A stretch of 34,582 nucleotides of DNA, taken from the NCBI GenBank assembly GCA_937899725.1, contig CALCCA010000172.1, positions 1 to 34,582 of the forward strand. The letters run 5' to 3'. The position numbers were made by a program, and so were the translations under genes. This document shows, piece by piece, positions 6,472 to 28,309 of this stretch; the stretch's first letter is position 1, and each line of letters starts with the position of its first letter. This DNA comes from an uncultured Halomicronema sp. (GTDB lineage Bacteria; Cyanobacteriota; Cyanobacteriia; Phormidesmidales; Phormidesmidaceae). The notes under the pieces were generated by a model. It saw only the letters and a program-made list of their open reading frames with translations. It did no database searches and was not told the DNA's origin.

Positions 6472-6605
6472 CAATCTGAATCAAATCCGCTTCACACATG
6501 TTTATCAACTGCTAGGTGAAACTCATTAATGATGGACTGATTGCAGAGCAGTTCACCGATGTCTAGATGAGTCGATAACTTTCAGTTAACTCAAGGAACT
6601 TGACT

Positions 6606-9275
6606 ATGCCGATCACGACCGTTCATGCCCTGGAAGACCTGATTCAACGGGTCAAGGCGGCGCAAGCCGAATACGCTCAATTTACGCAGGGTACTGTCGA
6701 TCAAATTTTCAAGAAAGCCGCGCTAGCCGCCAATGCGGCCCGCATTCCCCTCGCCAAACTGGCCGTCGAAGAAACCGGCATGGGCGTGGTGGAAGACAAG
6801 GTGATCAAGAACCACTTCGCTTCTGAGATCATCTACAACAAGTACAAGCACGAAAAGACCTGTGGCGTCATTGAAGCTGACCAGTCTTTTGGCATTCAGC
6901 GCATTGCGGAACCAGTGGGCATTTTGGCGGGCATTGTGCCGACGACCAATCCCACCTCAACGGCGGTGTTTAAGGCACTGATTGCCCTCAAAACCCGCAA
7001 CGCCATCATCTTCTCCCCCCACCCTCGGGCTAAGCGCTGTACGATTCGGGCAGCGCAAGTCGTATTAGAGGCCGCGATCGCCGCCGGCGCGCCACCCGAC
7101 CTGATCGGTTGGATTGATGAACCCTCCGTTGAGCTGTCGCAGGCGCTGATGCAGCACCCCGATATCAGCCTGATTTTGGCGACGGGTGGCCCCGCCATGG
7201 TGAGAGCCGCCTATTCCTCCGGTCATCCTTCCTTAGGCGTCGGTGCCGGTAACACCCCGGCGCTGATTGATGACACCGCTGATATCAAGGTCGCCGTCTC
7301 GTCCATTTTGCTGAGCAAAACTTTTGACAACGGCATGATTTGCGCCAGCGAGCAGTCAGTGATTGTGTTGGACGAGATCTATGAGGCGGTGCGGCAAGAG
7401 TTTATGGTGCGGGGCGCTCATTTCTTAGACGCGAGCGATCGCGTCGCCCTCGGCAACAACATCATCGTCAACGGTCGCCTGAATGCCGCGATTGTCGGTC
7501 AACCGGTGGCCCGACTGGCCGAGATTGCTGGCATTTCGGTGCCCGCTCAGAAGCGGGTGCTGATTGGCGAAGTGAGCGACATTGGCAGCGAAGAACCTTT
7601 TGCCCACGAAAAGCTGTCGCCGGTGCTAGCCATGTATCGCGCCAGCGACTTTGAGGATGCCGTCAGCAAGGCGAAGCAGCTGGTGCATTTTGGTGGACGC
7701 GGTCATACCGCCGTGCTCTACACCGACCCAGCCAACGCTGAGCATATTCGCAACTTTGAAGACAGTGTGGAAACGGCGCGCGTGTTGATCAACACCCCGT
7801 CTTCCCAAGGGGCGATCGGCGATCTCTACAACTTCCGGTTAGACCCGTCGCTGACCCTCGGCTGTGGCACCTGGGGCGGCAACTCCATCAGTCAAAATGT
7901 GGAGCCCCAACATCTGCTCAACATCAAAACCGTGGCCGAACGCCGGGAAAATATGCTGTGGTTCCGCGTGCCGCCCAAGGTCTATTTCAAATACGGGGCA
8001 CTGCCCGTGGCCATTCAAGATTTGGCCGGTAAGCAGCGGGCTTTTATCGTGACCGACCAGCCGCTCTACGACCTGGGCATGACTGCTGGGTTAGAAGAAG
8101 CGCTGAAGCAGGTGGGGCTGGCCTACGACATCTTTTATGATGTGGAGCCTGATCCCTCACTGGATACGGTGCAGCGGGGCTTGGCGCTGATGAACTCCTT
8201 TCACCCCGACGTGATTATCGCGCTGGGGGGCGGCTCGCCGATGGATGCTGCCAAGGTGATGTGGCTGATGTATGAGCACCCCGAAATCGAGTTTGAGGGG
8301 CTGGCCATGCGCTTTATGGATATCCGCAAGCGGGTCTATGAGCTGCCGCCTCTGGGTGAGAAAGCCGTGATGGTGGCGGTGCCTACCACGTCGGGCACCG
8401 GCTCGGAAGTCACTCCCTTTGCCGTGGTCACCGATCATCGGGTGGGCATCAAGTATCCCCTCGCGGACTATGCCCTGACGCCGACGATGGCGATCGTCGA
8501 TCCGGCCCTGGTGCTGAACTTGCCGCAGCGGCTGACGGCCTATGGCGGCGTCGATGCCCTCACCCATGCACTTGAAGCCTACGTGTCGGTGATGGCCTCT
8601 GATTTTACCAATGGCCTAGCACTAGAGGCGATTCAGCTGCTGTTTGAATACCTGCCGCGCGCCTATCACCAAGGGGCACACGATCCCGAAGCGCGCGAGA
8701 AGGTGCATTACGCTTCCACGATCGCGGGCATGGCCTTTGCCAACAGCTTCCTGGGCATCTGCCACTCGATGGCGCACCAGCTGGGCGGCACTTTCCACAT
8801 TCCCCACGGGCTGGCCAATGCCCTGATGATTTCCCACGTGATTCGCTATAACGCCACCGACGCGCCCTTCAAGCAGGCCACCTTCTCGCAGTACAAGTAT
8901 CCCGAAGCCAAGCATCGCTATGCCCGCATTGCCGAGGGCTTGGGGCTCCCCGGAATCTGTGAGGACGAAAAGGTGGCGGCGCTAATTGCTGCGATCGAAG
9001 ATTTGAAGCGGCAGCTCGAGATTCCTACTTCGATTCGCGAAGCCATGACAGAGCCGGAGGAGACCTTCTTCGCCAAGCTCGATCTGGTAGCCGATCAGGC
9101 GTTTGACGACCAGTGTACGGTGGCGAATCCGCGCTATCCGCTGATTAGTGACCTGAAGCAGCTGCTCGTCGATGCCTATCTCGGGCACTCGCCGCTGCGG
9201 ACCGATATTGACGGGGCGGCTCCCTCTGCTAGCCCGCCCCCCTCTGATCCCGCCGAACTGCAGCCGACAGGCTAA
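6606..9275 (+). CDS. adhE: bifunctional aldehyde-alcohol dehydrogenase AdhE
   Basis: An 889-residue cytoplasmic enzyme that reduces acetyl-CoA to acetaldehyde and then to ethanol using NADH, regenerating NAD+ during fermentation. The N-terminal half (about 1-440) is the CoA-acylating aldehyde dehydrogenase, with the nucleophile Cys246 in [12 protein letters not shown], the same number as in E. coli AdhE. The C-terminal half (about 450-870) is an iron-dependent alcohol dehydrogenase with [21 protein letters not shown] and the metal-binding His stretch [19 protein letters not shown]. Length matches the family. The ATG at 6606 is chosen over the in-frame TTG at 6600 because AAGGA at 6593-6597 gives 8-base spacing. 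A short non-conserved Pro/Ser-rich tail ends the protein. It is followed after 134 bases by pflB, with a hairpin in the gap. Confidence 0.97.
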
Positions 9276-9293
9276 TCCCAGCCCCATCCGTGC

Positions 9294-9358
9294 GGGCGAG
9301 GCCGTCAGACCGATGGTTCTGGAATGACCTCAAAATTTATTCATTGACGGCCTCGCCC
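9294..9358 (+). promoter_or_regulatory. 14-bp-stem hairpin in the adhE-pflB spacer (copy 1)
   Basis: GGGCGAGGCCGTCA (9294-9307) pairs perfectly with TGACGGCCTCGCCC (9345-9358) around a 37-base loop. The loop contains TGGA, then CAAAA and TTCA, as in copy 2 at 11774-11839. The flanks also match (CCGTGC before, C-CGCC after). It ends 38 bases before the pflB Shine-Dalgarno site. It could be a processing or attenuation element, or a mobile palindromic repeat. Confidence 0.65.
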
Positions 9359-9396
9359 CGACGCCTCTTCTACTCGTTACCCTTTCCACCTTTTAC

Positions 9397-9402
9397 AGGA
9401 GG
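9397..9402 (+). promoter_or_regulatory. strong ribosome binding site of pflB
   Basis: A full AGGAGG lies 7 bases before ATG 9410. It decides the start, because the frame is open upstream to 9290 and would otherwise read through the hairpin. Confidence 0.85.
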
Positions 9403-9409
9403 TTATCTC

Positions 9410-11686
9410 ATGGTTTCCACGCCAATTCGCAACACCGCTTCGACTGCCGCTCCGAACCGCCTCGATCCCTGGCAGGGCTTTACGTCCGGCGAGTGGACTA
9501 ACACTATCGACGTCCGTGACTTTATTCAACGCAACTACGCACCGTATGTCGACGACGCGACGTTTTTGGCCCCCGCCACCGATCGCACTCAGGCTCTCTG
9601 GCAGCAGGTCAGCGACCTGATGAAGCAAGAACGGGCCCACGGCATTCTCGCTGTCGATACGAAAGTGCCATCGAGCATTACGGCCCACGCGCCAGGCTAC
9701 GTCGACCAGTCCCTCGAACAAATCGTCGGCCTGCAGACTGATCAGCCGCTGAAGCGAGCGATCATGCCCAATGGCGGCGTGCGGGTGGTGCAAAAGTCGT
9801 TAGAAGCCTACGACTACCAGCTGGATGCAGGGACCCAGGAAATCTTTACCCAATATCGCAAGACCCACAATGACGGCGTGTTTGATGCCTATACCCAAGA
9901 GATGCGCTTGGCGCGGCACTCGGGCATCATCACCGGCTTGCCGGACGCCTACGGTCGTGGTCGGATCATTGGCGATTATCGCCGCGTGGCGCTCTATGGT
10001 TGCGATCGCCTCGTTGCCGACAAGCGCGAGCAGCTCACCTCCCTAGAGGTGGATGCCATTACTGAAACAGTGATTCAGCAGCGTGAAGAAATCAGCGAGC
10101 AGATTCGCGCCTTGGGTGAACTCCAGGCGATGGCAGCGAGCTACGGCTGTGACATTAGCCAGCCGGCGCTGACGGCCCAAGAAGCCGTGCAGTGGACTTA
10201 CTTCGGGTATTTGGGCGCGGTGAAAGAGCAAAACGGCGCGGCCATGTCACTGGGGCGGATTTCCACTTTCCTCGATATTTACATTGAGCGCGATCTGGCG
10301 GCGGGCACTTTGACTGAGGCGACGGCGCAGGAGCTGATCGACCACTTGGTGATCAAGCTGCGGATGGTGCGCTTCCTGCGGCATCCCGACTACAACCAAC
10401 TGTTCTCCGGCGATCCCGTTTGGGTGACGGAATGCATCGGTGGCGTGGGCGAAGATGGTCGACCTCTGGTCACGAAGAACAGCTTCCGCGTGCTGCAAAC
10501 CCTCTACAACCTTGGCCCAGCGCCGGAACCCAACCTCACGGTGCTGTGGTCAGAGCAGTTGCCGCTGCCGTTTAAGCGCTTTTGTGCCAAGACCTCGATC
10601 GATACCAGCGCCATCCAGTACGAAAATGACGACCTGATGCGACCGCTTTACGGTGATGACTACGGCATTGCCTGCTGCGTGTCAGCCATGCGCATTGGCA
10701 AGCAGATGCAGTTTTTTGGGGCGCGGGTCAATTTGGCTAAGGCGCTGCTGTATGCCATCAACGGCGGCAAGGATGAAAAATCGGGTAAGCAGGTCGGCCC
10801 AGCGATCGCCCCCATCACCGGCGACGTCTTGAACTATGACGAAGTCATGGCCAAGTTCAGCGAAATGATGGCCTGGTTAGCCAAAACCTACGTCAACACG
10901 CTGAACGTGATCCACTACATGCATGACAAGTACAGCTATGAGCGGATCGAGATGGCCCTACACGATCGCGACGTGTATCGCACGATGGCCTGCGGTATTG
11001 CCGGGCTGTCGGTAGTGGGCGATGCCCTCTCGGCGATCAAATACGCGCAGGTCAAAGTCTTGCGCAATGAGGACGGCCTCGCGGTGGATTATGACATTGA
11101 GGGCGATTTCCCCGTCTTTGGCAACAACGACGATCGCGTGGATAGCCTCACCGCAGGCGTGATGGAACAGTTTATGAACCTGATTCGCCAGCGCCCCACC
11201 TATCGCCAGGCGGTGCCCACCCAGTCGATTTTGACCATTACCTCTAACGTGGTGTATGGCAAAAAAACCGGCAGCACCCCCGATGGCCGCAAGGCCGGTG
11301 AACCCTTTGCGCCGGGCGCTAACCCGATGCATGGGCGCGACACCCACGGGGCGATCGCGGCCTGTGCTTCCGTCGCTAAGCTGCCCTACGAGCACGCTCA
11401 AGACGGCATTTCCTACACCTTCTCGATTCTGCCGGGCACGTTGGGCAAAACGGCCCCCGCGCAGGTCGATAACCTGGTGGGCGTGCTGGATGCCTACTTC
11501 CACGACACGGGGCATCACATCAATATCAATGCCCTCAACCGCGAGACCCTGCTAGAAGCGATGGAGCATCCAGAAAACTTCCCGCAGTTGACGATTCGCG
11601 TGTCGGGCTATGCGGTGAATTTTATCAAACTGACCCGCGAGCAGCAGCTCGACGTGATTAGCCGCACCTTCCACGAACGGATCTGA
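9410..11686 (+). CDS. pflB: pyruvate formate-lyase (glycyl radical enzyme)
   Basis: A 758-residue formate C-acetyltransferase that converts pyruvate + CoA to acetyl-CoA + formate without oxygen. The catalytic cysteine pair is Cys422-Cys423 in [12 protein letters not shown]. The glycyl radical residue is Gly733 in the C-terminal RVSGYAVNF, close to Cys418/Cys419 and Gly734 of E. coli PflB. Length and overall sequence match true PFL rather than diol dehydratase relatives. The start is fixed by AGGAGG. The activase gene follows after a 142-base gap with a second hairpin. The enzyme is destroyed by oxygen, so in an oxygenic phototroph it should work only in dark anoxia. No separate promoter was identified, so it is probably co-transcribed with adhE. 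Confidence 0.97.
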
Positions 11687-11773
11687 CTCTCTGGTGGCGG
11701 GCGATCGCCCCGTGATCGACAGGACACGGCGATCGCCATCCGACCAGCAGCATGACGCCATCATCGCCCGTAC

Positions 11774-11839
11774 GGGCGAGGCATTGGGGCCTGAACGTAA
11801 TGGATAATTCCAAAACGTTGTTCACCCAATGCCTCGCCC
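11774..11839 (+). promoter_or_regulatory. 15-bp-stem hairpin in the pflB-pflA spacer (copy 2)
   Basis: GGGCGAGGCATTGGG (11774-11788) pairs perfectly with CCCAATGCCTCGCCC (11825-11839) around a 36-base loop. The loop itself can fold: AACGT with ACGTT, and TGGA with TCCA around TAAT. The outer nine base pairs match copy 1; the inner ones differ yet remain paired. The ATG at 11829 lies inside the 3' arm. Confidence 0.7.
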
Positions 11840-12638
11840 CTCCGCCATTACCGCTATGCCTTCACCCTCCCCAGTTCCGCATCATTCGCCGCTGCCTGAC
11901 CTACATTCAACCCACCAAGGCCGCATCCATTCCGTCGAAACCAGCAGCGCCGTCGATGGGCCAGGGCTGCGCTACGTTATCTTCACCCAAGGCTGTCTGC
12001 TGCGCTGTCAGTATTGCCACAACCCTGACACCCGCGACCCGCTGGGCGGCAAAGTCGTCACCGTGGATGAGCTGATTGAGGATATCCAGCACTATCAGTC
12101 GTACCTCACCTACTCTGGCGGCGGTGTCACTGTCACTGGCGGTGAACCCCTGCTGCAGCCCGAGTTTGTGCGCGAGATTTTTCGCCGTTGTCGCTCGCTC
12201 AATATCCACACGGCGTTGGATACGTCCGGCTTCCCTGACTTCGAGGCTTCCAAACCCGTCTTAGACTACGCCGACCTGGTGCTGCTCGACATCAAATCCT
12301 TTGACCCCGAGATTTATCACCGCGTCACCAATGTCGCGATCGCCCCCACCCTGCACTTCGCTCGCCACCTGAGTGCCACCCAACATCCCATGTGGCTGCG
12401 GTTTGTGCTGGTGCCCGGCCTGACCGACGATCGTGCCAATGTAGAGGGCCTAGCGCAGTTTGTCGCCACTCTGCAAGGCGTCAAAAAAGTCGAAGTGCTG
12501 CCCTTCCACAAAATGGGCGAATACAAGTGGAAAGAGCTGGGCTTGCCCTACCTGTTGGAGAATACAGACCCCCCAACCGCCGAGCAGATCGAATCGGTTA
12601 AAACGATTTTTCGCAGCTGTGGGCTGAGTGTTGAGTGA
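11829..12638 (+). CDS. pflA: pyruvate formate-lyase activating enzyme (radical SAM)
   Basis: A radical SAM enzyme that installs the glycyl radical on PflB using S-adenosylmethionine and a [4Fe-4S] cluster. The CxxxCxxC motif is Cys56, Cys60 and Cys63 (GCLLRCQYCHN), preceded by GRIHSVET and VDGPGLRYVIFTQ, as in E. coli PflA. Other family motifs are SGGGVTVTGGEPLLQ and the C-terminal VEVLPFHKMGEYKW. The conserved region starts at residue 31. The first 30 residues are Pro/Ser-rich and not family-like, so the start is uncertain: ATG 11829 lies in the hairpin arm, and ATG 11856 is an alternative that removes nine residues. Neither has a clear ribosome binding site. It is the last gene of the adhE-pflB-pflA cluster. 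Confidence 0.95.
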   Translation: MPRPSAITAMPSPSPVPHHSPLPDLHSTHQGRIHSVETSSAVDGPGLRYVIFTQGCLLRCQYCHNPDTRDPLGGKVVTVDELIEDIQHYQSYLTYSGGGVTVTGGEPLLQPEFVREIFRRCRSLNIHTALDTSGFPDFEASKPVLDYADLVLLDIKSFDPEIYHRVTNVAIAPTLHFARHLSATQHPMWLRFVLVPGLTDDRANVEGLAQFVATLQGVKKVEVLPFHKMGEYKWKELGLPYLLENTDPPTAEQIESVKTIFRSCGLSVE

Positions 12639-13141: not shown

Positions 13142-14581
13142 TTACCGCCGTAGACTCACCAACAGCGCCACCACCGCAATCACCAGGCAGGTGCCCAGGC
13201 TGAGATAGCCCAGCCAGATAATCTGCGTGGCTTTCCGTTGGGCGGCGGCCAGCATTTGATTCGCTTTTTCCTGGGCTTCGAGTTCCAGACGCACCATTTT
13301 GGCGTCCCACTCCTGACTAGCCGAGAGAAAGCGATAATCCAAATCGCTGAGGCTTTTGTCCCCCGCCCACTGCAGGGCTTCGCTCAGGGCTTGCCCCATC
13401 AGCAGGCGCGATTCATCCTGATGGCTAGAGGCCACCCAGGCACCGAGGGCCGCCGCATAGGGGCGCTGATGGGCCAGACAGCGAGCGATCCAATCGTGAT
13501 CAAATACCGCTGGATAAATACGGTTGGTCACCTGCAGGTAGCCCTGCTGCTCGATCGCGATGCCCGAGAGCTTTAGCTCTGACTGGTCCGGGCTGCCGTC
13601 GGCTTTGAGCTGCTCGTGGCTGAGCAGCCGCTGATAAAGGCTGAGCAAGCGTCCCGATCGCTGTGGCACCATCGTCAGGCGATCGCGAATCGTGCGTAAA
13701 TGCTCGGGCTCATCCTGCGCTTCCCAATTGGTCAGCAAGCGCGCTCGCACCAACTCCGCCACGACTGGCGCTTCTTGACCAGCGGGGATGGGGCGATCGC
13801 GCTGGGTGCGCCGCAACAGACAGCAAACCTTTTGGGTGAGAAATGGCTGTCCTCCCGTCCAGTTCAGCACTTCGGCGAGCACCGGTTCGGGTCGCCGGGC
13901 CAGATCGATCAGCCCAGTGGTGAGGGGCGCGGCCTCAGTGAGCGAAAAGCCTGGTAGGTGAATGGCCTGCCCCACGTTGAAGGGCGTCTGCCCCACGTCG
14001 GTCACTAAATCACGCGGCGTCGCCACCCCAAAGAGAGCCCAGGTGAGGCGACGGTAGGCGGCGTTTTCAGCCCGTGCGTTGTAGCAAAACCGCACCAGGC
14101 CAAAAAAATCATCCACCGCAAAATTGAGTCCCCGAACGCTGTCGATTTCATCTAAAAAGATAAACAGCGGTTCGTCAGCAAACGCCGGCAGCAAGACAGT
14201 TTCAATAAACTGGCTGAGCTTTTGTACCGGCGATAGCTCGCCTAACTGCTGCCACCAGTACGGTAAGTCGCGGGGGTGCTGTAGTCTAAACTTGCGCACC
14301 AGGTCATAGGCTAACCCTTGGTACCACTGCGTTGGGGTGACTTGATGACTGCCAATGCGAGCCAGATCGATCGCCGCACAGCGTCCCTCATTGGCGGCTT
14401 CTAGCCGATGGCGGGTGCGCAGTCGTAAACTCGATTTGCCCATTTGCCGCGAGGTGAGTACATAGCAAAACGAGCGATCGCGCAGCGCCTGATAAAGCGT
14501 TGCATCTGCCGCGCGATCAATATAAGTCGGATCGCGAGCCGAGAGGCTGCCCCCCACTTGGTACTCATAGGATTTATCCAT
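13142..14581 (-). CDS. AAA-like ATPase with C-terminal membrane helix
   Basis: A 479-residue protein of the AAA-like (AAA_35-type) family frequent in cyanobacteria. It opens with the family hallmark YEYQVGGSL and a Walker A variant TSRQMGKSSL (residues 43-52). A Walker B LFIFLDEIDS follows at about 139-148. Residues about 150-410 are the rest of the STAND-like ATPase with helical parts. The C-terminal about 25 residues (IIWLGYLSLGTCLVIAVVAL) are a single membrane anchor preceded by a charged helical stretch. Relatives often carry WD40 or TPR repeats at this end; here there are none. It lies 127 bases downstream of a second AAA-like gene on the same strand and is probably co-transcribed. Such ATPases are thought to work as signalling switches; the output is unknown. 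The start is ATG 14581, with AGGGG just upstream. Confidence 0.85.
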   Translation of the reverse strand: MDKSYEYQVGGSLSARDPTYIDRAADATLYQALRDRSFCYVLTSRQMGKSSLRLRTRHRLEAANEGRCAAIDLARIGSHQVTPTQWYQGLAYDLVRKFRLQHPRDLPYWWQQLGELSPVQKLSQFIETVLLPAFADEPLFIFLDEIDSVRGLNFAVDDFFGLVRFCYNARAENAAYRRLTWALFGVATPRDLVTDVGQTPFNVGQAIHLPGFSLTEAAPLTTGLIDLARRPEPVLAEVLNWTGGQPFLTQKVCCLLRRTQRDRPIPAGQEAPVVAELVRARLLTNWEAQDEPEHLRTIRDRLTMVPQRSGRLLSLYQRLLSHEQLKADGSPDQSELKLSGIAIEQQGYLQVTNRIYPAVFDHDWIARCLAHQRPYAAALGAWVASSHQDESRLLMGQALSEALQWAGDKSLSDLDYRFLSASQEWDAKMVRLELEAQEKANQMLAAAQRKATQIIWLGYLSLGTCLVIAVVALLVSLRR

Positions 14582-14708
14582 TGGCCCCTAATGCCCCCCA
14601 GGGTGGCAATGCTGCAGTCTGAGAGGGCAGACACACGATATCAGAGAGGGCTCCGACAACGCTTCTGCCCCCCACAGCGTCAGCCTTATTTCAGCCATTA
14701 GTTGGCGG

Positions 14709-16046
14709 TCATTCGGTCGGCAAAAATTCATGAAAGTATTCGCGATACAGCTCACAGCTTGGGGCTGCCTGGTTTTTGTTGAGCCGGATCAGGCCCAAAC
14801 TCTCTAACCGATAGGCTGTAATCGGCTCCAACGTTACCGGCTCGGGCGTGTCAATCACCTGCCGAAAGGCTTGTTGCAGCTCAGGGTGAGGATAGAGGGC
14901 CGCCAGCAACTCTCGCAGGTGATCGCTGTAGATGCCTGATTGGGTGGGGGCTTCGTCAATCAGCTGTTCTAAAGTAAGGCGATAGCGCGCCAGGGCGTAC
15001 AGCGCCAGTCGCACTAAGCCCGGACGGCAGCTGACTCGCTGCAGCAGCGACAACAGCTGATCAGAGCCCGTGTCACCCGCCGCCCAATCGAGACCATGAC
15101 GACGGGCCAACTCTTGTACCTGACTTAACGAAAAGGAGGGCAGCTTGATCGAAAACCCGACATTAAACGGTGACTGGTGCAGCTGCAGCGGCACGTAGAC
15201 GTCTGTTGCGTGAGCTAGCACCCACCGCACCCGCTGCCAAACCGCCAGCTCGCGGGCATCTTCGTACCAGCTACGCAGCAGCGGCAAAAACTCAGCGGCA
15301 ATTTCGGGATATTGAAACAAGTCATTCAGCTCATCCAGAGCAATTACCAGGTCGCCTTTGATTTGGCCCAGTACGTAGTCTTCGAGATACGCCGTGCAGC
15401 TCACCTTACTGCCGATCGTCGGATTCCAAAAGGCGTCTAAGTCAGTCGCGAGGCCCAACTGGTGGCTAATATTGGCGCAAAACCAGCGCAAAAACGACTC
15501 GATATCTTGATAAATGGCGCGATCGGCCCGGTTAAACCGCAGCGTCACGGTGCGAAATTCGTGCCCTTGAGCGTGGGTGACAATCCGCTTGAGTAAGGAT
15601 GTCTTACCCATTTGCCGGGGGGCTTTGATGCGAATCAGGCTACCGGGCTTAAGCACATCGGCAAAGGCCTGGGATTCGATCGGTGGGCGCTCGATATACA
15701 GTGACGAACTTAGCGGCACCGGCCCGCTTGGAAATTCTAACGCCAGCGACGTCGGCGCCAGGGGCAGCACGGCCGTCTGTGCCTGCTGCTGACGATGGCG
15801 AGCATAGCGCCCCAGCACGGCCTTGATATTGCTTTTAGACACCTTTTGCGCCAGCGCCTCTGACAGGGTTTGCCAGAGCCGAAAGCCCACATCACGAATA
15901 TAGTTGTGTTCGTAATTGCAGGCCTCAGCAATTTCGGCATAGGTCTTGCCTTCCCACACCTGACAGAAGATCGTTTCTTGTAAATTAGTCAGAGGCTGCT
16001 GCGGCAGAAATTCATCCACAATAGCCAGAGCTTCATCAACGTCCAT
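14709..16046 (-). CDS. AAA-like ATPase with N-terminal HTH of the vMAP type
   Basis: A 445-residue protein. Residues 1-85 (MDVDEALAIVDEF, LTNLQETIF, WEGKTYAEIAEACNY, RLWQTLSEAL) look like the winged HTH at the start of many cyanobacterial NB-ARC/WD40 and vWA-MoxR-associated conflict proteins. Residues about 105-400 are an AAA-like ATPase with Walker A APRQMGKTSL (142-151) and Walker B LVIALDELND (233-242). ATG 16046 is preferred over an in-frame GTG at 16061 because family members begin with MDVxEAL. The gene precedes the second AAA-like gene in the same direction. It has no recognisable effector domain of its own. The HTH name is from memory of the family and should be confirmed by profile search. 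Confidence 0.82.
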   Translation of the reverse strand: MDVDEALAIVDEFLPQQPLTNLQETIFCQVWEGKTYAEIAEACNYEHNYIRDVGFRLWQTLSEALAQKVSKSNIKAVLGRYARHRQQQAQTAVLPLAPTSLALEFPSGPVPLSSSLYIERPPIESQAFADVLKPGSLIRIKAPRQMGKTSLLKRIVTHAQGHEFRTVTLRFNRADRAIYQDIESFLRWFCANISHQLGLATDLDAFWNPTIGSKVSCTAYLEDYVLGQIKGDLVIALDELNDLFQYPEIAAEFLPLLRSWYEDARELAVWQRVRWVLAHATDVYVPLQLHQSPFNVGFSIKLPSFSLSQVQELARRHGLDWAAGDTGSDQLLSLLQRVSCRPGLVRLALYALARYRLTLEQLIDEAPTQSGIYSDHLRELLAALYPHPELQQAFRQVIDTPEPVTLEPITAYRLESLGLIRLNKNQAAPSCELYREYFHEFLPTE

Positions 16047-16369
16047 AATCAATTGAAGCACCGCTTAATCGGTGGCGGCAGGGGCTCACAGTTGGGTGGC
16101 TTTCAGTATTGCAGGGATTCTCATAAACTCGACGAAGCCCCGATTTTTTCTGACACCTTAAAACTATAGAGCCGATTTTTCTCGTGGATCAGGACTGTAA
16201 ACCAAATTATTTCAGGCAGACATCCGGTGATCGCCCTGATTAAGGTGCAGTATTGACAATTTCCGTTATTTTCAACGTCGCATCAGCTCCCAGCCCACTA
16301 TTCTGAAAAGGGTGCTGCTACCCGCTGTCCACCCGCCATTTATCCCTCGTCGCCTCTAGGAACTTCTTG
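16047..16369. other. divergent promoter region
   Basis: A 323-base gap between the divergent ATPase and reductase genes. It must hold both promoters. A TTGACA occurs near 16253 on the plus strand, without a well-spaced -10 box. The phrase CCGATTTTT occurs twice (about 16140 and 16170). Nothing stronger was seen. Confidence 0.4.
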
Positions 16370-21446: not shown

Positions 21447-21623
21447 CTACTTCAAAAGGGGAATCACAAAGACGATACAGGCTCCCAAAAAGAACAAACT
21501 GCCCAACACGCTGTAGATATCACCGCTGCGCAGACTCGATATGGTAAAAAAGCTCGCTGAGGCAATAAATAGCCCCCATCCCCATAGTTGAATTTGTCGT
21601 TCTCGCTCGGGTTTTAGACTCAT
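21447..21623 (-). CDS. 58-residue two-helix membrane protein
   Basis: A small protein with a basic N-terminus (MSLKPERERQ), a first hydrophobic helix (LWGWGLFIASASFFTIS) and a second one (VLGSLFFLGACIVFVIPLL) separated by a short charged loop. Its ATG overlaps the TGA of the upstream flavoprotein gene as ATGA, which implies translational coupling and membership in the same operon. A longer in-frame extension to 21755 lies inside the flavoprotein gene and is unlikely. I recognise no named family. Coupling suggests it may anchor or export something for the quinoprotein array, but this is inference. Confidence 0.7.
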   Translation of the reverse strand: MSLKPERERQIQLWGWGLFIASASFFTISSLRSGDIYSVLGSLFFLGACIVFVIPLLK

Positions 21624-23086
21624 AACAGTTGCGGTTGATTGGGGATAGAAAAACCGGTGGAGGGAGCCGGGACGGCGGCTAAAACGAGAATATCTTGACT
21701 CCAGCACCACTGGAGGATTTGCCAACAAATTGACAAGTCCTGTTGGCGACGCCACCGTTGCACCAGGTCTAAAATCGTCTGCCCCGGCGTCACCAGACTG
21801 AGCAACGCCGCTATCTCGACGTTCCCTAGGTAGGCGACTGGACTCTCTAAGCTGGGGTGAGAGAGGGCGGGAATGAGTTGAATGGAGTTGTTCTGAATCA
21901 CCGGGGTAGTGCTCAGTTGGGCCGAGGGCGACAGGCGAATGCGATCGCTCAATTCAAACAGTCGGGCATTTTGCGGCCAAGAGTCAGGCTGAGCCACTGC
22001 CGGGGGCTGCGATCGCTGCTGCCAAAAAGGACTGCTGGGATAAACATTTTGCGCCGCATAGAAATAGGCGGCGGCAGTTTTTGAACGGGTGACCGTCTCC
22101 TCGATTTTGTGACGATAAAAGGAGTAGACCGCCTCGGCTTTTTCCGGCTGCGTGAGTAAAGTGTGAGTCGCGATGCCGCCCTGAAAGGCGGACAACAGCG
22201 CCATCTGCACCCCTTGAGCGGATAACGGATCAATCGCAAACGCCGCATCGCCGACCCGCAGCCAATCAGGGCCAATGGGGTCGGGGGCAAGATAAAAGGA
22301 AGCATCGCAAACCTGCACCGGCTCGGCTAGATGCCCCTCTAGGCAGTCCTTTAAGAGGGGTGCTTGGGTGAGCAAAGAACGATACCAGGCGGTGCGCTGG
22401 TGAGGGCGAGCCGCCTGATATCGTTTAGCCTCGACAAAAACGGCGGCATTAAAGCTGCCGTCAGGCAAAGCCGCCCCCCAAAACCATTCATTTTCCCCCG
22501 CTTCGACATACGACTCACCCGGCTGAAAGGCGGTTTTCTGCCAGTACCCGTAGAGTGCCAACGTGGTGACCGCATGATGCTTGACCTGGCGGTCAAACCC
22601 ACTGTGTTTGCCGGTGGCATTAATCAAAAATTGCGCGTTGATCGTCGTTTGCCCCGCCGCTGTCCGCACCGGCAGAGTCCACTGGTTTGGCCCGAGAGAC
22701 TGGGGCCGCCCCGCCGCTGCGGGTTGCACAACCGTTACCCCAGCCGCCTGGGCTGCCGCTAGCAAAAGCTGATCGAGTCGCCCCCGATCAACCAGAAACC
22801 CGGCTTCTGGGTCATAGGGCTTCTCAAAGGGCAGATGCGTCGACCAGCGAATGAACGCGGACTCGGGACGGCAAGCCCCAGCGGCTTCCACCAGTTGGCG
22901 CAGATCCAACAGCTCCAGCACGGGCAAAATCGAAGGCGGCAGGGATTCCCCAATGTGGGCGCGGGGGAAAGCGGCCTTTTCGACTAGACAAACTTGATGG
23001 CCGAGTCGCGCCAGTTGGCGGGCGATCGCCGAGCCGGCCGGGCCGCCCCCGACGACACAGATTTCGGTCACTAACTCGGAGGTCAT
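21620..23086 (-). CDS. FAD-dependent monooxygenase, QhpG/LodB-like (halogenase superfamily)
   Basis: A 488-residue flavoprotein. The N-terminal dinucleotide fold has VVGGGPAGSAIARQL (about 11-25), followed by PRAHIGESLPP (about 41-51), a signature of tryptophan-halogenase-like monooxygenases. The second FAD motif is RVGDAAFAIDPLSAQG (about 277-292). The C-terminal about 60 residues (EIAALLSLVTPGQTILDLV, QILQWCWSQDILVL) look like a PqqD-type winged helix, a fold used to bind peptide substrates. Known relatives QhpG and LodB/GoxB hydroxylate a protein tryptophan on the way to cysteine tryptophylquinone. Location directly after a QhpD-like gene, with an ATGA overlap, supports the same role here. 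The PqqD-like reading is tentative. Confidence 0.82.
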   Translation of the reverse strand: MTSELVTEICVVGGGPAGSAIARQLARLGHQVCLVEKAAFPRAHIGESLPPSILPVLELLDLRQLVEAAGACRPESAFIRWSTHLPFEKPYDPEAGFLVDRGRLDQLLLAAAQAAGVTVVQPAAAGRPQSLGPNQWTLPVRTAAGQTTINAQFLINATGKHSGFDRQVKHHAVTTLALYGYWQKTAFQPGESYVEAGENEWFWGAALPDGSFNAAVFVEAKRYQAARPHQRTAWYRSLLTQAPLLKDCLEGHLAEPVQVCDASFYLAPDPIGPDWLRVGDAAFAIDPLSAQGVQMALLSAFQGGIATHTLLTQPEKAEAVYSFYRHKIEETVTRSKTAAAYFYAAQNVYPSSPFWQQRSQPPAVAQPDSWPQNARLFELSDRIRLSPSAQLSTTPVIQNNSIQLIPALSHPSLESPVAYLGNVEIAALLSLVTPGQTILDLVQRWRRQQDLSICWQILQWCWSQDILVLAAVPAPSTGFSIPNQPQLL

Positions 23087-24471
23087 GACGCGAGTGGCGT
23101 GGCCGGAGCACTGGCAAAATACTCAGGCCGCTGCTCTAACAGATGCACGTAGGTCTGCAGGCAAAAGTGCAGCCAGCCGCGAATGTAGTCACAGGCCGGG
23201 CGACCGCGATGAATCACCTCATGGTGACAGCCGCCACCGCAGAGATAACGCGCCCAGCAGCTTTTGCAAGGCTCTTGGCGATCGACTTGCCGGGCCGCTA
23301 GCCACTGGTTTTGGACATCACGGTTAAGCCCATCCTCCAAATTACCCATCAGGCCTGCTGCGTCGTTGACAAATCGGTGACAAGCCCACAAATTGCCATC
23401 AGCCGAAACACCCATATAACCGGCCCCTGCCCCACAGGGATAAGGGCGATGGGTACCTCGATGAATCTGCTGCAGCGCCATCGTCAGGTTAGAAAATGGA
23501 TAACGTCGCCCGGCCAGGGTTTGCCGTTCAAATTCCTGACCACATTCGATCATCTGCTGCAGCATGATGTCTAGATCGGCGGTATCCATCTCGGCTTTGC
23601 CCGTCGGCGAACTCAGCATTGGCGAAAAGCCCACACTGTGAAAGCCCAAGTCGATCAGGTCTTGCAAGGTTTCCCGCAGGTTTAGGTTTTGCGGCGTCAC
23701 CGTCACGCGAGCCGACACCGACATCTGGCGGGCTCGCGACAGCAACGGCTCCAGGTTCGCCAAAATCCGGTCATAGCTGCCCCCGCCCCCTTTGAAGGGC
23801 CGCAGGCGATCATGGGTGGCTCCCACCCCATCCAGGCTGACCGTCACCGCAAAACCATAGCGTTCAAAGAAGTCGGCATCCGCCGCTGTCAGCAAGGTGC
23901 CGTTGGTGGTGATGCCAAATCCCACTTTTACCTGTCGCGCTTGGGCGATCGCCATCGCCAATTCCGTTACCTTATAGATCAGCGGCCGATTGATTAACGG
24001 TTCGCCCCCCATAAAGGAAAGGTTGACGCGATCGCCAGGTTGGGTGTCTTCAAACAGACGCTCGACAGCAGCTTCAGCTACCTCCCAAGACATGCTCTTG
24101 GCGACATCGCCAAAGTCTCCAGCCTGGGCATAACAGTAGGTGCAGCCCAGGTTGCACTTTTGGGCGATCGCCAGAGAGAGCGCCCGCAACGGCGGATTCG
24201 TCAGGGGGTTGAGGTCGGCCATAAAGACAGATGTCTCAGACGCCAACCCAGAGGTCGCTAAGAGCGCATCCACCTGGGCGGCATCGGGGGTCGCTAATCC
24301 TTCCAGGGCGGCGACGAGTTCAGGCGCCACGGCATAGACCTGCGACCCATCCGCCATCAGCGCGTGGGGGCCATACTCAGTTTCAAACAAGTGAATTTGC
24401 GGCTGGCGGGGGGCTGACTGTTCATAGAGTGTTTGCACGTTCGTTGCCGTTGCAGTAGAGGCAGTATTCAT
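23083..24471 (-). CDS. QhpD-like radical SAM/SPASM peptide maturase
   Basis: A 462-residue radical SAM enzyme with a C-terminal SPASM domain. The SAM cluster motif is Cys106, Cys110, Cys113 (AQKCNLGCTYCYA), and GGEP is at 155-158. The SPASM region has cysteines at about 346, 364, 402, 405, 411, 415, 427 and 437, in phrases RPYPCGAGAGYMGVSADG, CKSCWARYLCGGGCHHEV and ACDYIRGWLHFC. These phrases match what I remember of the quinohemoprotein amine dehydrogenase maturase QhpD, which makes Cys-to-Asp/Glu thioether crosslinks in the small subunit. ATG 24471, with GGAGG 9 bases upstream, is preferred over an extension to 24543 that would overlap the ferritin-like gene. It is joined to the flavoprotein gene by ATGA. 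No QhpC-like small subunit is seen nearby, so the substrate is open. Confidence 0.88.
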   Translation of the reverse strand: MNTASTATATNVQTLYEQSAPRQPQIHLFETEYGPHALMADGSQVYAVAPELVAALEGLATPDAAQVDALLATSGLASETSVFMADLNPLTNPPLRALSLAIAQKCNLGCTYCYAQAGDFGDVAKSMSWEVAEAAVERLFEDTQPGDRVNLSFMGGEPLINRPLIYKVTELAMAIAQARQVKVGFGITTNGTLLTAADADFFERYGFAVTVSLDGVGATHDRLRPFKGGGGSYDRILANLEPLLSRARQMSVSARVTVTPQNLNLRETLQDLIDLGFHSVGFSPMLSSPTGKAEMDTADLDIMLQQMIECGQEFERQTLAGRRYPFSNLTMALQQIHRGTHRPYPCGAGAGYMGVSADGNLWACHRFVNDAAGLMGNLEDGLNRDVQNQWLAARQVDRQEPCKSCWARYLCGGGCHHEVIHRGRPACDYIRGWLHFCLQTYVHLLEQRPEYFASAPATPLAS

Positions 24472-24475
24472 CGGT

Positions 24476-25423
24476 TTAGCCCTCCAAGTACTTAAGCAAA
24501 TCGTGGCCCGACCAGGGCTGTTCTCCGGCCACCACCTCAGCAAAGAAGGGCAGGCCGATGCCCTGACGGGCTAGAACTTCCCCTTTTTCTTGCAGGTAGG
24601 TCATCTGGTCTCGAGCGCAGCTCGCGGTCGCCCCCGCCGCCCGAAATTCACCCTGCGGAATCGAGGCATAGGTTTGTTGCACATTCACCAAAATCTCTCG
24701 GTAATGCTCTAAGGCGTCAGCCGTTTCTGCAAAAGTGCCCACTCGCAACGGGCGCAGGTAGGCGTCGGTGGCATCCAACTGCACGTACTTGTCGAGCACC
24801 CGCTGCACCTCCAGCAAGTTTTTGTAGTGCCCCATGCCGTCGCCATCAATTTTGGCTGCTAGCTCATACAAATGCTGCGGATATTTGGGCTGTCGGAGCG
24901 TGCTGACCAACTTGCCATAGGCGCCGTCGATATACCCACTCGGTCGCTCTACGGCAATCAGGTCGGCTAAGAGCTCGGGGGTCAAGGGGCGCAGCGCCGC
25001 GTTTCTAAAGCCGCGATGAGCTGGGCCTAATTCATCAGGACGAGGCACCCTTTGCGCTAGCGGAATACCGGGATCGGCAACGGGCGCCACGAGGCCCTCG
25101 TCCTGCAACAGCCACAGCAATTGGTGAGCCCAGCGATAGTGGGTCATTTCACCCACGCTGATCATGAGCAGGGTGCGGCGAACAAAGCTCAAATCTGTCG
25201 CCAGGGACGGAAATTGAGTTTGCTCTGCCGTGACCTCTTCGGCATGGCGCAGAGAAAAATAGGCGTAAAGATACTCTAAAGAAAGGGTTAATTCCAGTGG
25301 AATTAAATGTTCTCGTAAGATCTGAGCCAAGTCTTCGGGGTGGGTATAAAACTCGTTTGCCGATACCTCAGAAACCGGCTCAAACTGTTTTCCTAAGACG
25401 GAAAGATTTAGATTTTCTAACAC
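24476..25423 (-). CDS. ferritin-like (VioB/CboM-type) helical protein
   Basis: A 315-residue helical protein resembling the ferritin-like domain found in VioB-type proteins. Candidate metal ligands are Glu50 (LTLSLEYLYAYFSL), Glu92 and His95 (GEMTHYRWAHQLL), Glu159 (VERPSGYIDGAYG) and Asp195/His199 (IDGDGMGHYKNL). The pattern fits a carboxylate-bridged metal site, but which metal and which reaction are unknown. The start is a GTG at 25423, supported by GAGG 8 bases upstream. Its stop is 4 bases before the start of the QhpD-like gene. Its position between the oxidase-like subunits and the maturation genes suggests a role in assembly, peroxide handling or substrate oxidation. No signal peptide was seen. 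Confidence 0.8.
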   Translation of the reverse strand: MLENLNLSVLGKQFEPVSEVSANEFYTHPEDLAQILREHLIPLELTLSLEYLYAYFSLRHAEEVTAEQTQFPSLATDLSFVRRTLLMISVGEMTHYRWAHQLLWLLQDEGLVAPVADPGIPLAQRVPRPDELGPAHRGFRNAALRPLTPELLADLIAVERPSGYIDGAYGKLVSTLRQPKYPQHLYELAAKIDGDGMGHYKNLLEVQRVLDKYVQLDATDAYLRPLRVGTFAETADALEHYREILVNVQQTYASIPQGEFRAAGATASCARDQMTYLQEKGEVLARQGIGLPFFAEVVAGEQPWSGHDLLKYLEG

Positions 25424-25664
25424 AAAATTTTCCTCAAAAAAGTAAGCGCTTATAGACTGATGCAGTGGCCGCTCTTGGCCCCTAGCTACACCGTTCAGGA
25501 GACCGGATTAACGGCATCCAAAGCGGTGAATGTGGGGCCAGAGGTCAGCCCTACGGTTGTTCCTGATTGAAGAGTTACTCGCGGAAACTTGAAAAACGAG
25601 CACTTCAACCGTGTCCAAATAGTTGAAACCGGGATGATGAGTCATCCTCCGGCGATCGCAAGAC
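25424..25664. other. 241-base gap inside the quinoprotein array, with small hairpin
   Basis: The only sizeable gap in the array. A hairpin GGATGA-TGAG-TCATCC lies at 25632-25647 just after the stop of the LodA-C-like gene. It has no T-tract, so it may cut expression between the two subunits and the accessory genes or protect mRNA. A 45-codon minus-strand frame (25645-25508) exists but lacks a usable ribosome binding site. Confidence 0.4.
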
Positions 25665-26645
25665 CTAATTCAGATCCTGATCGGTTTCATCAGGGTCTTG
25701 AGCATCCCGCTCAGGCGGCGTATAGGTCTCGCTAATCTCACGACTTTCTAGCGCAAAATTTAACTCAGTCCAGCGCTTGTTGATTTCGTGGTTATCCATT
25801 TGATACTGGCGAAGTTTGCGATAGGAATTGGGCGCAAACACGCGACCCGTGGCTTCGCGATCGCTGCGGAGCCAATCTAATCGCAAGTTGGCATCTTCTG
25901 ACTCCAGCAACTCTTCTTCGGTTTTAGCCGGTACCTCAGCGAACACAATATCAGGCCGATTAGACGCCCAATACATGCAGGCGCAGTCGCGCATATCGTG
26001 TTGCCAAGGGGAGCACAGGCTCTGCACCAGTTCGCCTGGCTGATACACCTCGTTGAGCGTACCGGTTTTGGGATCGACAAACTGCCGCCGCCAGCCGTTG
26101 AGGGTAATGGTGGGATGTTGCCCGTCCGCTTCGGTCAGGTCGCGCCGCATGAGCGTCAGGCCAACGTGACCGGGGCTCAGGCTCCGCACAATCCGCCAAA
26201 CGGCCATCCCATCCATCGGAATCCGCTCTCCCTTCGAGTTGCGGTCGTAGAGGGCGATGGTTTTCCCCGCTTGTTCAAGCGTGTCGATAAACCACTCGCC
26301 TTGGCGCAGTTCGCGGCCCTGAGGGCTATGAAAAACGGCCAGCAGGGCAATCGCCATCGGATTAGACTGATGCAAATCGGCATCGCACTCATCCTCGACG
26401 GATACCAGGCGCGCCCCATACAGATTGGGGATTTCGGGGTCGAGTTCGCGGTGCTCGCGGCCGGCAAAGTTGAAGACCAGGCCAGGAAAAAAGCGCCGAT
26501 CCAGATTACGGATATCGATGCCGAGACCAGGAAAACAGTTGCCCACTTCATCTTCTAACCGGCTCGAGACCGGATTGCCAGCCGCTTGGTAGGCCAAACG
26601 AGCCGTGAGATTGCGAGGAAAGATTTTGGGTTGTTCTGACATCAT
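25665..26645 (-). CDS. LodA/GoxA-like C-terminal subunit with candidate CTQ residues
   Basis: A 326-residue protein resembling the C-terminal part of LodA-family oxidases, which carry a cysteine tryptophylquinone made from their own Cys and Trp. The key stretch is LCSPWQHDMRDCACMYW followed by ASNRPDIV, with Cys211, Trp214, Asp217, Asp220, Cys221, Cys223 and Trp226. Further on Trp292 lies in KRWTELNF. LodA, as I recall, uses Asp512, Cys516 and Trp581; here Asp217, Cys221 and Trp292 reproduce the 4-residue step and a similar long step (71 against 65). The N-terminal part shows NCFPGLGIDIRNLDRRFFPG. The start ATGATG overlaps the stop of the upstream gene. Known family members oxidise amino acids and release H2O2; the substrate here is unknown. 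No signal peptide. Confidence 0.72.
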   Translation of the reverse strand: MMSEQPKIFPRNLTARLAYQAAGNPVSSRLEDEVGNCFPGLGIDIRNLDRRFFPGLVFNFAGREHRELDPEIPNLYGARLVSVEDECDADLHQSNPMAIALLAVFHSPQGRELRQGEWFIDTLEQAGKTIALYDRNSKGERIPMDGMAVWRIVRSLSPGHVGLTLMRRDLTEADGQHPTITLNGWRRQFVDPKTGTLNEVYQPGELVQSLCSPWQHDMRDCACMYWASNRPDIVFAEVPAKTEEELLESEDANLRLDWLRSDREATGRVFAPNSYRKLRQYQMDNHEINKRWTELNFALESREISETYTPPERDAQDPDETDQDLN

Positions 26646-28309
26646 GATGGCATCTCCGAAGCAGGCGTAACGGGGGACTGGGCGGTAGATTCAGCGTTAC
26701 CTTCTTGTTGCTCTAAGAAGGTCAAAAAGGTCATCAAGGTCTGGTACTGTCGGCGGGTGAGTGACAGCGGTTCCCGATCCGAATCGCGCATGTAGGGAGG
26801 CATCCGCATGTCATGCAGGGTGTCTCGGAACACTCGCGGATCCCGAAATTCGGGGTGCGAATCGGCGGCGGGTTCAGCGGGCAACTGCTTGAAGCTGCCA
26901 AAGGGGGGACGGATCATCTGACGGACGCGATCGCCCCGCATTTTGAGAAACGTAATCAGGTAGTCGAGGCTGGTAAAAGAGCCGTGGGCATGGGCGCTCA
27001 TATCGGTATATGGCAACCGACTATGCCCCTGAGACTGGTCGCTCAAGCCATCATTGAGAACGTCGCCCGACAAACGGGATAGGGGCTTGTCGGCTTTGGT
27101 CATGCCCTCACGCCCAATGTGAGGCGGACTTTGCCAGTTGTCCACCGGGGCGCGTTTCAGGTTTTCGCGAATGAGATAATCACGAGAAGCATCGAGATTC
27201 AGCAGATTCGTCGTCTCAAAAATGCGCTTGAACAAATCGTGAACTTCCAGGGCGGTGAGTTCAGCGGTCTCTGCCGTAATTTCTACCGGGGACAGTTCGC
27301 GATCGGCCAGCTCATCGGCCATTGAGAAGAAGGGGCGGCGATCGGGCGCGTAATCGGGGGGCGCGACAAAAGCTCGCGTCGATGCGGTAAAGCGCTGGCC
27401 CTTGACCGTCAACTCAGCATAAAGAACAATTTCGCAGGTATCGTCGACGGTGCCCCAGCAAATGCTCTCGCCCACGTTCGCCCCGTCGTAACTATCTGAC
27501 GGCTGCGGATCATCGGCCATGCCGCTGTCCATGATGTATTCCGACCAGGGCGTATGCGGATTCAAAATCCGGTTGGCTGCCGGCACAATCTCATGCATCC
27601 GCGCCGCGATCGAGGCATAAGGCAGTTGCCGACCGGGCTCCAAGGGCGAAACCGCCCCCATGGTGGCCTCGGTCGAGCCATAAACTTCCCCTTTGGCCGG
27701 GGTAAACCGCACTCGCACACAGCTCAAGTCTTGCTCTAGCGACTGACCGGCAACCGGGCGGATGAGCTGCACATGACCCAAAGAGATCGGGGCATCCTCA
27801 TACACCAGCGGTTCCCGCTCGGGGAACGAGGGACTGACGGCCAAAAGATTATGTTTCAAGTGGTCGTCGCCGCGAATCGTGAGTCTGGCCCCAAAGCTAC
27901 AAGCCGGGTCTTTTACCCGTCGCGACGCCTTGGTGTTAGCAGCATGGGCGCGAATGAGCAGATGCTGCTCCAAAGAGACGCCCAAATCAGCCAGCAACGC
28001 CAATGTCACCGGCACTTGTTGCTGCCCCTCACCGGCCACCACCACATCGGCCCACAATTCGAAAAATGGTGCCACCGGACGAATCTTGCCGTCATCTTTA
28101 AAGCGGATTTCGTGAGGCAAATAAGCCTCTAATGAACCATCCGGTCGCACCCAAAAACTGATCTGGGGACGAATGATCGTTTGACAGGCGCTATGCGCTC
28201 GCAAATCCTCCTCCCAGGAGTAGGCTTCTAGCGGTATCTCTGAATTGCCCAGACGGGCCATCGCCATGGGGGGGAGGAAGTAAACTTCCAACAAGGTGAC
28301 TTTTTTCAT
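26642..28309 (-). CDS. LodA/GoxA-like N-terminal subunit
   Basis: A 555-residue protein whose features follow the order of the N-terminal part of LodA-family quinoprotein oxidases. It opens with VYFLPPMAMARLGNS, comparable to the family's IARxGNS start. Next come IRFKDDGKIRPVAPFFELW and LIRAHAANTKASRR, then VRVRFTPAKGEVYGS, then TASTRAFVAPPDYAPDRR, and near the end LTRRQYQTLMTFLTFLE. In single-chain relatives this last phrase leads straight into the C-terminal part, which here is encoded by the next gene with an ATGA overlap. The two genes thus look like a split LodA. Start ATG 28309 has only a weak ribosome binding site. A good promoter lies upstream. Alternative view: a separate fungal/bacterial structural family with chance similarity; profile searches should settle it. 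Confidence 0.7.
   Translation of the reverse strand: MKKVTLLEVYFLPPMAMARLGNSEIPLEAYSWEEDLRAHSACQTIIRPQISFWVRPDGSLEAYLPHEIRFKDDGKIRPVAPFFELWADVVVAGEGQQQVPVTLALLADLGVSLEQHLLIRAHAANTKASRRVKDPACSFGARLTIRGDDHLKHNLLAVSPSFPEREPLVYEDAPISLGHVQLIRPVAGQSLEQDLSCVRVRFTPAKGEVYGSTEATMGAVSPLEPGRQLPYASIAARMHEIVPAANRILNPHTPWSEYIMDSGMADDPQPSDSYDGANVGESICWGTVDDTCEIVLYAELTVKGQRFTASTRAFVAPPDYAPDRRPFFSMADELADRELSPVEITAETAELTALEVHDLFKRIFETTNLLNLDASRDYLIRENLKRAPVDNWQSPPHIGREGMTKADKPLSRLSGDVLNDGLSDQSQGHSRLPYTDMSAHAHGSFTSLDYLITFLKMRGDRVRQMIRPPFGSFKQLPAEPAADSHPEFRDPRVFRDTLHDMRMPPYMRDSDREPLSLTRRQYQTLMTFLTFLEQQEGNAESTAQSPVTPASEMPS

Follow-up and report, generated by a model that had tools for sequence, protein, structure and literature searches.

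We analyzed a 34,582-nucleotide stretch of DNA from an uncultured Halomicronema sp. (contig CALCCA010000172.1 of assembly GCA_937899725.1, positions 1 to 34,582; hereafter the window), focusing on a gene set that seems to assemble a quinone enzyme, with the catalytic quinone derived from the protein's own amino acids, by combining two maturation routes that had been known only in distinct enzyme families. Six reading frames are present between positions 21447 and 28309, all on the minus strand, in agreement with the same-direction array of six genes that an earlier reading of the letters alone (the original prediction) had described. In reading order, they encode LodN (26642-28309; 555 amino acids), the N-terminal half of an oxidase akin to LodA/GoxA but diverged from them; LodC (25665-26645; 326 amino acids), the C-terminal half, with a predicted cysteine tryptophylquinone (CTQ) site; a ferritin-like protein (24476-25423); a radical S-adenosylmethionine (SAM)/SPASM protein resembling the thioether maturase QhpD (23083-24471; 462 amino acids from its ATG); a QhpG-like flavin adenine dinucleotide monooxygenase, predicted to be a tryptophan hydroxylase (21620-23086; 488 amino acids); and a small membrane-type protein (21447-21623; 58 amino acids). 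The Qhp proteins with which these are compared belong to quinohemoprotein amine dehydrogenase (QHNDH), in which QhpC is a 9 kDa subunit.

All three ATGA overlaps that had been claimed were located: between LodN and LodC at 26645-26642, between the radical SAM and flavoprotein genes at 23086-23083, and between the flavoprotein and small-protein genes at 21623-21620. LodC and the ferritin-like gene are separated by a 241-base gap (25424-25664), in which a search for an RNA element supported none (z -1.8; 13 of 200 shuffles equally stable). As start codon of the radical SAM frame, the ATG at 24471, which directly follows the stop codon of the ferritin gene, is likelier than the TTG at 24543, and for the small protein the overlapping ATG at 21623 fits better than the GTG at 21755. 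The small frame, which overlaps the flavoprotein stop, had been counted as part of the array. We rejected it as a member of the conserved set, as a relative was seen only in locus L005 among the loci searched (frames of at least 60 codons, E ≤ 1e-4).

LodN, LodC and the ferritin-like domain

For the window proteins taken singly the link to LodA is weak, while profile comparisons across relatives and a structural match make it firm for the family. Window LodC matched the Pfam model LodA_C at E 0.0026 (17.9 bits, under the curated cut-off of 25 bits), and its sole NCBIfam match was the QHNDH gamma model NF037958 (E 0.029, 14.3 bits versus a cut-off of 50). Window LodN had no Pfam match at E ≤ 1 and a sole NCBIfam match to GoxA (E 0.076). 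Searches of the Protein Data Bank with single proteins returned only GoxA, at E 0.66, for LodN and no match for LodC. Across relatives, all 31 members of alignment A2, the window included, match LodA_C, and 10 of the 28 members of alignment A3, the window not among them, match LodA_N (both at E ≤ 0.1). These alignments leave out L001, L004, L011 and L018 (A2) and L001-L004, L008, L016 and L018 (A3); a further one, A4, leaves out L001, L004 and L018. Compared by hhalign with a seven-row LodA/GoxA alignment, the LodN family scored E 1.4e-13 over 270 columns and the LodC family E 2.7e-8, and a LodN profile matched GoxA and LodA chains at E 6.2e-5 to 2.5e-4.

Structural modeling of a relative agrees with these profiles. 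In L006, LodN, LodC and the ferritin domain form one natural frame of 1110 residues, and the AlphaFold2 model of this fusion, rather than of the window proteins, has a mean predicted local distance difference test (pLDDT) score of 77.8. It superposes on GoxA with Z 20.7 (root-mean-square deviation 4.1 over 396 residues) and on LodA with Z 19.7, and LodA and GoxA chains fill the top 13 rows of a Foldseek search. The LodA-like pair of the original prediction is supported by this match and by the profile searches that tie 25665-28309 to LodA: a diverged LodA/GoxA-type fold is divided between LodN and LodC. With LodA and GoxA they share the overall fold, the catalytic Asp, the positions of the CTQ Cys and Trp, and a flavoprotein partner gene. 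Unlike in LodA and GoxA, the halves lie in two genes wherever both were seen, except in L006.

The third gene matches PF12902 at E 9.4e-8 (32.6 bits versus a cut-off of 22.3). Residues E44, E92, H95, E159 and H199 are kept in 33 of 33 ferritin-domain rows, and position 195 is Asp or Glu in 14 rows listed, which makes them a plausible candidate di-iron site on sequence grounds. The corresponding part of the L006 model resembles the ferritin-like protein CC_0557 (3hl1; Z 18.7). Fold and candidate ligands are shared with PF12902 proteins; unlike the stand-alone 3hl1, the domain here is mostly fused to LodC. It is present in 31 of 31 loci of our genome survey (described below), in the same frame as LodC in 28 and separate in L004, L005 and L018. 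Seven plasmid loci (L035, L036, L073-L077) carry LodC with no fused ferritin domain; in five of them (L035, L036, L073, L075 and L077) a separate ferritin-like gene is annotated nearby.

PF12902 also occurs in VioB and RebD, and a literature look-up for a VioB link led nowhere. In Nostoc sp. UHCC 0302 (L038, 6352-7986) a ferritin-like domain seems to replace the usual N-terminal part of LodN. A PF12902 gene is also a point of likeness with some LodA neighborhoods: one lies near LodA in Azospirillum brasilense (L072), and according to the available portion of one report, fungal LodA neighborhoods may hold one (PMC4417212).

The LodC motif and the predicted maturation enzymes

LodC itself bears, by alignment, the cross-link motif of QhpC, a point absent from the original prediction. 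The signature Cys-x5-Asp-x3-Cys-x-Cys-x2-Trp-x5-Asp (25950-26015, minus strand) comprises C211, D217, C221, C223, W226 and D232, and none of the 37 LodC rows examined lacks any of the six. They line up with Cys27, Asp33, Cys37, Cys41, Trp43 and Asp49 of QhpC in an alignment read by eye that needs a two-residue gap and a one-residue insertion. As described in the accessible parts of two reports (PMC8172795; PMC7876137), QhpC carries thioethers Cys7-Glu16, Cys27-Asp33 and Cys41-Asp49 and a CTQ formed by Cys37 and Trp43. By analogy, we predict for LodC a CTQ at Cys221-Trp226 and thioethers at Cys211-Asp217 and Cys223-Asp232, so that two of the three Cys-Asp/Glu pairs of QhpC and the CTQ pair would be shared. 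Because the locus scan used the peptide patterns WQHD[FM]RD and KIFPRNLT, part of the motif, though not its Cys residues, was selected for in some loci; LodC rows with WQYD or WTYD and the plasmid loci are free of this selection.

The third pair is uncertain. A Cys37-x-PGL-x-x-Asp44 element near the LodC N-terminus (26514-26537, minus strand) was found by alignment with QhpC, and an equivalent of QhpC Cys7-Glu16 may link Cys37 with Glu42 or Asp44. Cys37 is replaced by Ser in L031, and the element is weak evidence because a similar Cys/Glu pair is kept in LodA. The conserved N-terminus of LodC bears only a vague likeness to a QhpC-like leader.

LodA offers the complementary comparison. Its D512 and C516 align with LodC D217 and C221 (E 0.2 for that alignment alone). 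By numbering, W581 of LodA is the second Trp of WWPPQSP and therefore matches LodC W226 rather than the downstream W292; we rejected Trp292 as the CTQ Trp, since it aligns with a later LodA Trp (within 611-634). We assembled 13 LodA rows, namely L059, L060 and L062 plus 10 chosen for spread among 36 plasmid records. A strict expression left one of them unparsed (Parab, L070), along with two QhpC rows in which AD replaces PD; both QhpC rows fit a looser pattern. The CTQ-site Asp, Cys and Trp are present in 12 of 12 parsed LodA/GoxA rows, whereas a Cys at the C211 place and a Cys just ahead of the Trp each occur in none of the 12, and the final Asp in one. Even L060, a LodA with LodC-like Cys-Trp spacing, has neither extra Cys. 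The looser pattern matched once in each of 60 of the 80 loci examined, all with LodC or QhpC (several being the same place counted more than once), and in none of the 13 LodA loci. Because LodC rows have the extra Cys residues and LodA/GoxA rows do not, the motif, judged from these alignments, tracks the presence of a radical SAM partner. The LodC loop thus differs from that of LodA and GoxA by two extra Cys and one extra Asp.

The window radical SAM protein has QhpD (TIGR03906) as its best NCBIfam model (319.7 bits, under the cut-off of 453), and this model matches 32 of 32 members of its family (E ≤ 1e-20). Invariant in the family are C106, C110 and C113 and the SPASM cysteines C346, C364, C402, C405, C411, C415 and C427. 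The window flavoprotein scores 322.4 bits with the QhpG model NF049967, above the cut-off of 240, versus 145 bits with LodB and 129 bits with GoxB, both under their own cut-offs. A radical SAM partner and a flavoprotein nearer to QhpG than to LodB further set the system apart from LodA and GoxA, as does the usually fused ferritin-like domain. These profile results, together with the co-occurrence described below and the failure to detect QHNDH subunits in the window's genome, support the earlier proposal of a LodA-like target paired with QhpD- and QhpG-type maturases.

Might LodC be cross-linked and nothing more, a PapB-type enzyme having turned it into a thioether-caged domain like that of a ranthipeptide, with no quinone and the flavoprotein otherwise employed? 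PapB is likewise a radical SAM/SPASM protein; the window enzyme scores 270 bits with the PapB model, PapB makes Cys-Asp thioethers (PMC8172795, in the portion available), and the quinone of LodC is predicted rather than measured. We consider this unlikely. D217, C221 and W226 are present in every LodC row and align with the LodA residues D512, C516 and W581, and a QhpG-type flavoprotein lies near 28 of 31 loci, the characterized QhpG being described, in the available text, as hydroxylating the CTQ Trp (PMC7876137). PapB also differs in that its substrate is a short peptide, and the QhpD model fits the window enzyme better (320 versus 270 bits).

Alternatively, the LodC quinone could form in the manner of LodA, by auto-hydroxylation and a flavoprotein, while the radical SAM enzyme works on some other substrate that escaped notice, for instance a small peptide. 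The accessible part of PMC7876137 describes LodA and GoxA as flavoprotein-made and does not mention a radical SAM enzyme, and QhpD-like enzymes resemble many peptide maturases. Against this, both Cys-Asp pairs of QhpC, which a radical SAM enzyme matures, occur in LodC but not in the LodA rows, the flavoprotein of the window resembles QhpG rather than LodB, and the small frame here is not conserved, although no systematic search for a conserved small peptide gene was made. We regard such a route as quite improbable.

That the locus is a remnant or variant of an operon for QHNDH, the heme-linked amine dehydrogenase, is suggested by radical SAM and flavoprotein families nearest to QhpD and QhpG, which together with the cross-link and CTQ motif and the gene adjacency are what the two systems have in common. 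The window's genome, however, has no match to the QHNDH alpha or beta models TIGR03908 or TIGR03907, in searches that placed G402, G016 and G053 above the alpha cut-off and G402 above the beta cut-off, and gave a single weak beta match in G167 (E 4.2e-4, under cut-off). The gamma model likewise had no match there, in a search whose own controls went unmatched; the same gamma model matches in G402. The lack of QHNDH heme subunits stated in the original prediction therefore holds for these models. The target also sits within a LodA-fold oxidase, as the L006 model indicates for the family, and LodC, at about 260-330 amino acids (about 560-710 with the ferritin domain), is unlike the 9 kDa QhpC. 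Finally, when 41 radical SAM rows were placed in an unrooted tree (L001, L004 and L018 left out; the tool warns of long branches), 36 LodC-linked sequences split from 5 QhpD sequences at 100/100. We rejected the remnant, which we judge very unlikely.

Distribution and co-occurrence

A scan of a collection of 84,980 species found 31 loci with LodC, in Cyanobacteriota, Pseudomonadota, Myxococcota, Actinomycetota, Planctomycetota and Binatota. The claim of a new system in a cyanobacterium thus stands as to its presence there, but the set spans six phyla and is not specific to cyanobacteria. The radical SAM gene adjoins LodC in all 31 loci (as a short frame in L018), and LodN is present in 29, L016 (a contig end) and L018 (which looks decayed) being those without it. 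Among the 28 loci with a QhpG-type flavoprotein nearby, it was found by BLAST with the window protein in 12 (L005-L015 and L017) and has QhpG as its best NCBIfam model in 16 (L019-L034); in L019 it is divergent and lies beside LodN. No flavoprotein was found in L004 and L016, both short contigs, or in L018. In L018, from Amazonocrinis nigriterrae (9317-11350), the LodC frame and its radical SAM neighbor are each truncated and abut, as if decayed by deletion.

As these loci were found with LodC, their agreement tests the path from LodC to the radical SAM gene; we tested the reverse in plasmids and, within the window's phylum, in 386 genomes. Of 72,556 plasmid records, 19 hold LodC. The 19 best radical SAM matches of 56 (268-559 bits, 35.6-58.5% identity) come from the same 19 records, where the two genes lie side by side by coordinates. 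The lower matches comprise 26 QHNDH-type records (24 annotated peaB, 2 unannotated), reaching 246 bits, and 11 further records with other radical SAM proteins. Identities of LodC-linked proteins and QhpD overlap (35.6-58.5% versus up to 38.1%); bit scores do not (268-559 versus at most 246). In the 386 genomes, a full LodC match occurs in three, and in four more the match is confined to the ferritin part or to a short stretch of LodA. The radical SAM profile matches five genomes at E ≤ 1e-60. The three exceeding 600 bits are those with LodC; in the other two (about 355 bits) the gene adjoins a true QhpC and the genome has a QHNDH alpha match. LodA_C exceeds its cut-off in two other genomes, where the radical SAM profile gave nothing at E ≤ 1e-60. 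The LodC-linked radical SAM subfamily was therefore not met without LodC in the plasmids or the 386 genomes, a check that concerns LodC, LodN having been looked at in only part of those records. Among 28 genomes of the relatives, QHNDH gamma was found in one, a Mameliella that carries both sets.

The original finding holds, in stronger form than first put: the set is conserved and widely spread. It is probably also mobile: taxa are intermixed within the LodC-linked side of the radical SAM tree, which suggests horizontal movement. On the Bradyrhizobium plasmid pBb323S2c (L035/L062, 122937-137354), a LodA/GoxA oxidase of the classical kind, accompanied by a flavoprotein gene, lies about 6 kb on from the LodC set, and Microvirga and Mycetohabitans plasmids likewise hold both LodC and LodA.

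Rarity within the phylum (3 of 386 genomes) and the truncated radical SAM and LodC frames of the relative L018 could mean that the set is decaying or non-functional in the window's genome. We think this highly improbable, given that the window frames are all open and joined by ATGA overlaps, that the six key LodC residues are kept, and that two close relatives hold LodC at 94 and 98% identity to the window.

Elsewhere in the window, frames at 6600-12638 encode an AdhE-type fused aldehyde/alcohol dehydrogenase, a pyruvate formate-lyase and a radical SAM protein (by Pfam), the last of which may be the activase of the pyruvate formate-lyase, making a fermentation set in a cyanobacterium. An adjacent pair of AAA_35 (AAA-like) genes lies at 13145-16061 on the minus strand.

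Proposed pathway and implications

We favor the view, at a probability of roughly three in four, that a LodA scaffold and QHNDH-style maturation together define a third class of CTQ enzyme, as the sequence comparisons suggest. Building on the observed gene order, homology, fold match, motif and co-occurrence, we infer the chemical steps, cross-link partners, substrate and role of the ferritin domain as follows. LodN and LodC would together form a CTQ oxidase of amines or amino acids with the LodA/GoxA fold. The QhpD-like enzyme would act first, on LodC, making sulfur-to-methylene thioethers between Cys211 and Asp217 and between Cys223 and Asp232, and possibly also linking Cys37 to a nearby acidic residue. 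The QhpG-like flavoprotein would then hydroxylate Trp226, which would be linked to Cys221 and oxidized to CTQ, with Asp217 as the probable catalytic base. The ferritin-like domain, mostly on the LodC chain, is probably a di-iron partner handling peroxide or the imine product; whether it removes the former or acts on the latter is a guess.

Several observations pull the other way. The radical SAM score falls short of the QhpD cut-off, and the LodC-linked enzymes separate from QhpD in the unrooted tree. Flavoproteins of L019-L034 score 45-102 bits with QhpG, and those of L037, L038 and L039 score 56, 98 and 131 bits, all under the cut-off, although QhpG is the best model for each. No protease matched in the 10 flanking frames scanned, and therefore no QhpE counterpart was seen next door, a further difference from QHNDH. 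The direct hhalign comparison of LodC with QhpC gives E 0.0062 at a probability of 6%, and a core-only comparison E 0.0041 at 8%, with 1 of 100 column shuffles as high. Glu42 of LodC, one candidate partner for Cys37, is replaced by Gly in the window and in L005. The CTQ loop of the L006 model (741-838) has pLDDT below 50, too low for cross-link geometry or distances to be judged from it.

LodC and QhpC nonetheless each compare well with LodA by hhalign. For QhpC (QHNDH gamma; L040, L041 and L056-L058) against LodA (L059, L060 and L062-L072), the comparison over the CTQ loop gives E 2.5e-7 across 26 columns, which suggests, independently of LodC, a common origin of the QhpC and LodA CTQ sites. 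The available portion of PMC7876137 describes the routes to tryptophylquinone cofactors as divergent strategies with a convergent outcome. Among the matches listed in a search of titles and abstract openings in open PMC, we found none that paired a LodA-like protein with a radical SAM enzyme; bioRxiv and the greater part of the subscription literature lay outside its scope.

On balance, we lean toward a third class present in at least six phyla, with LodA-fold oxidases, a QhpD-type thioether-caged loop, QhpG-type hydroxylation and a di-iron domain that most members carry in the same polypeptide. As LodC, QhpC and LodA have the loop in common, all known CTQ sites may share one ancestral module in which the cage was gained or lost. 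A LodA scaffold with QHNDH-type target residues and maturases would link two of the known routes and suggests common descent of CTQ sites. The LodC family would further offer a natural experiment on the purpose of the thioether cage, and LodC a case in which a radical SAM enzyme that forms thioethers has a large protein as its substrate. In Streptomyces, Bradyrhizobium, Nostoc and elsewhere, the family also points to a new group of candidate oxidases; plasmid copies that carry an annotation now go by hypothetical, ferritin-like domain-containing or radical SAM protein.

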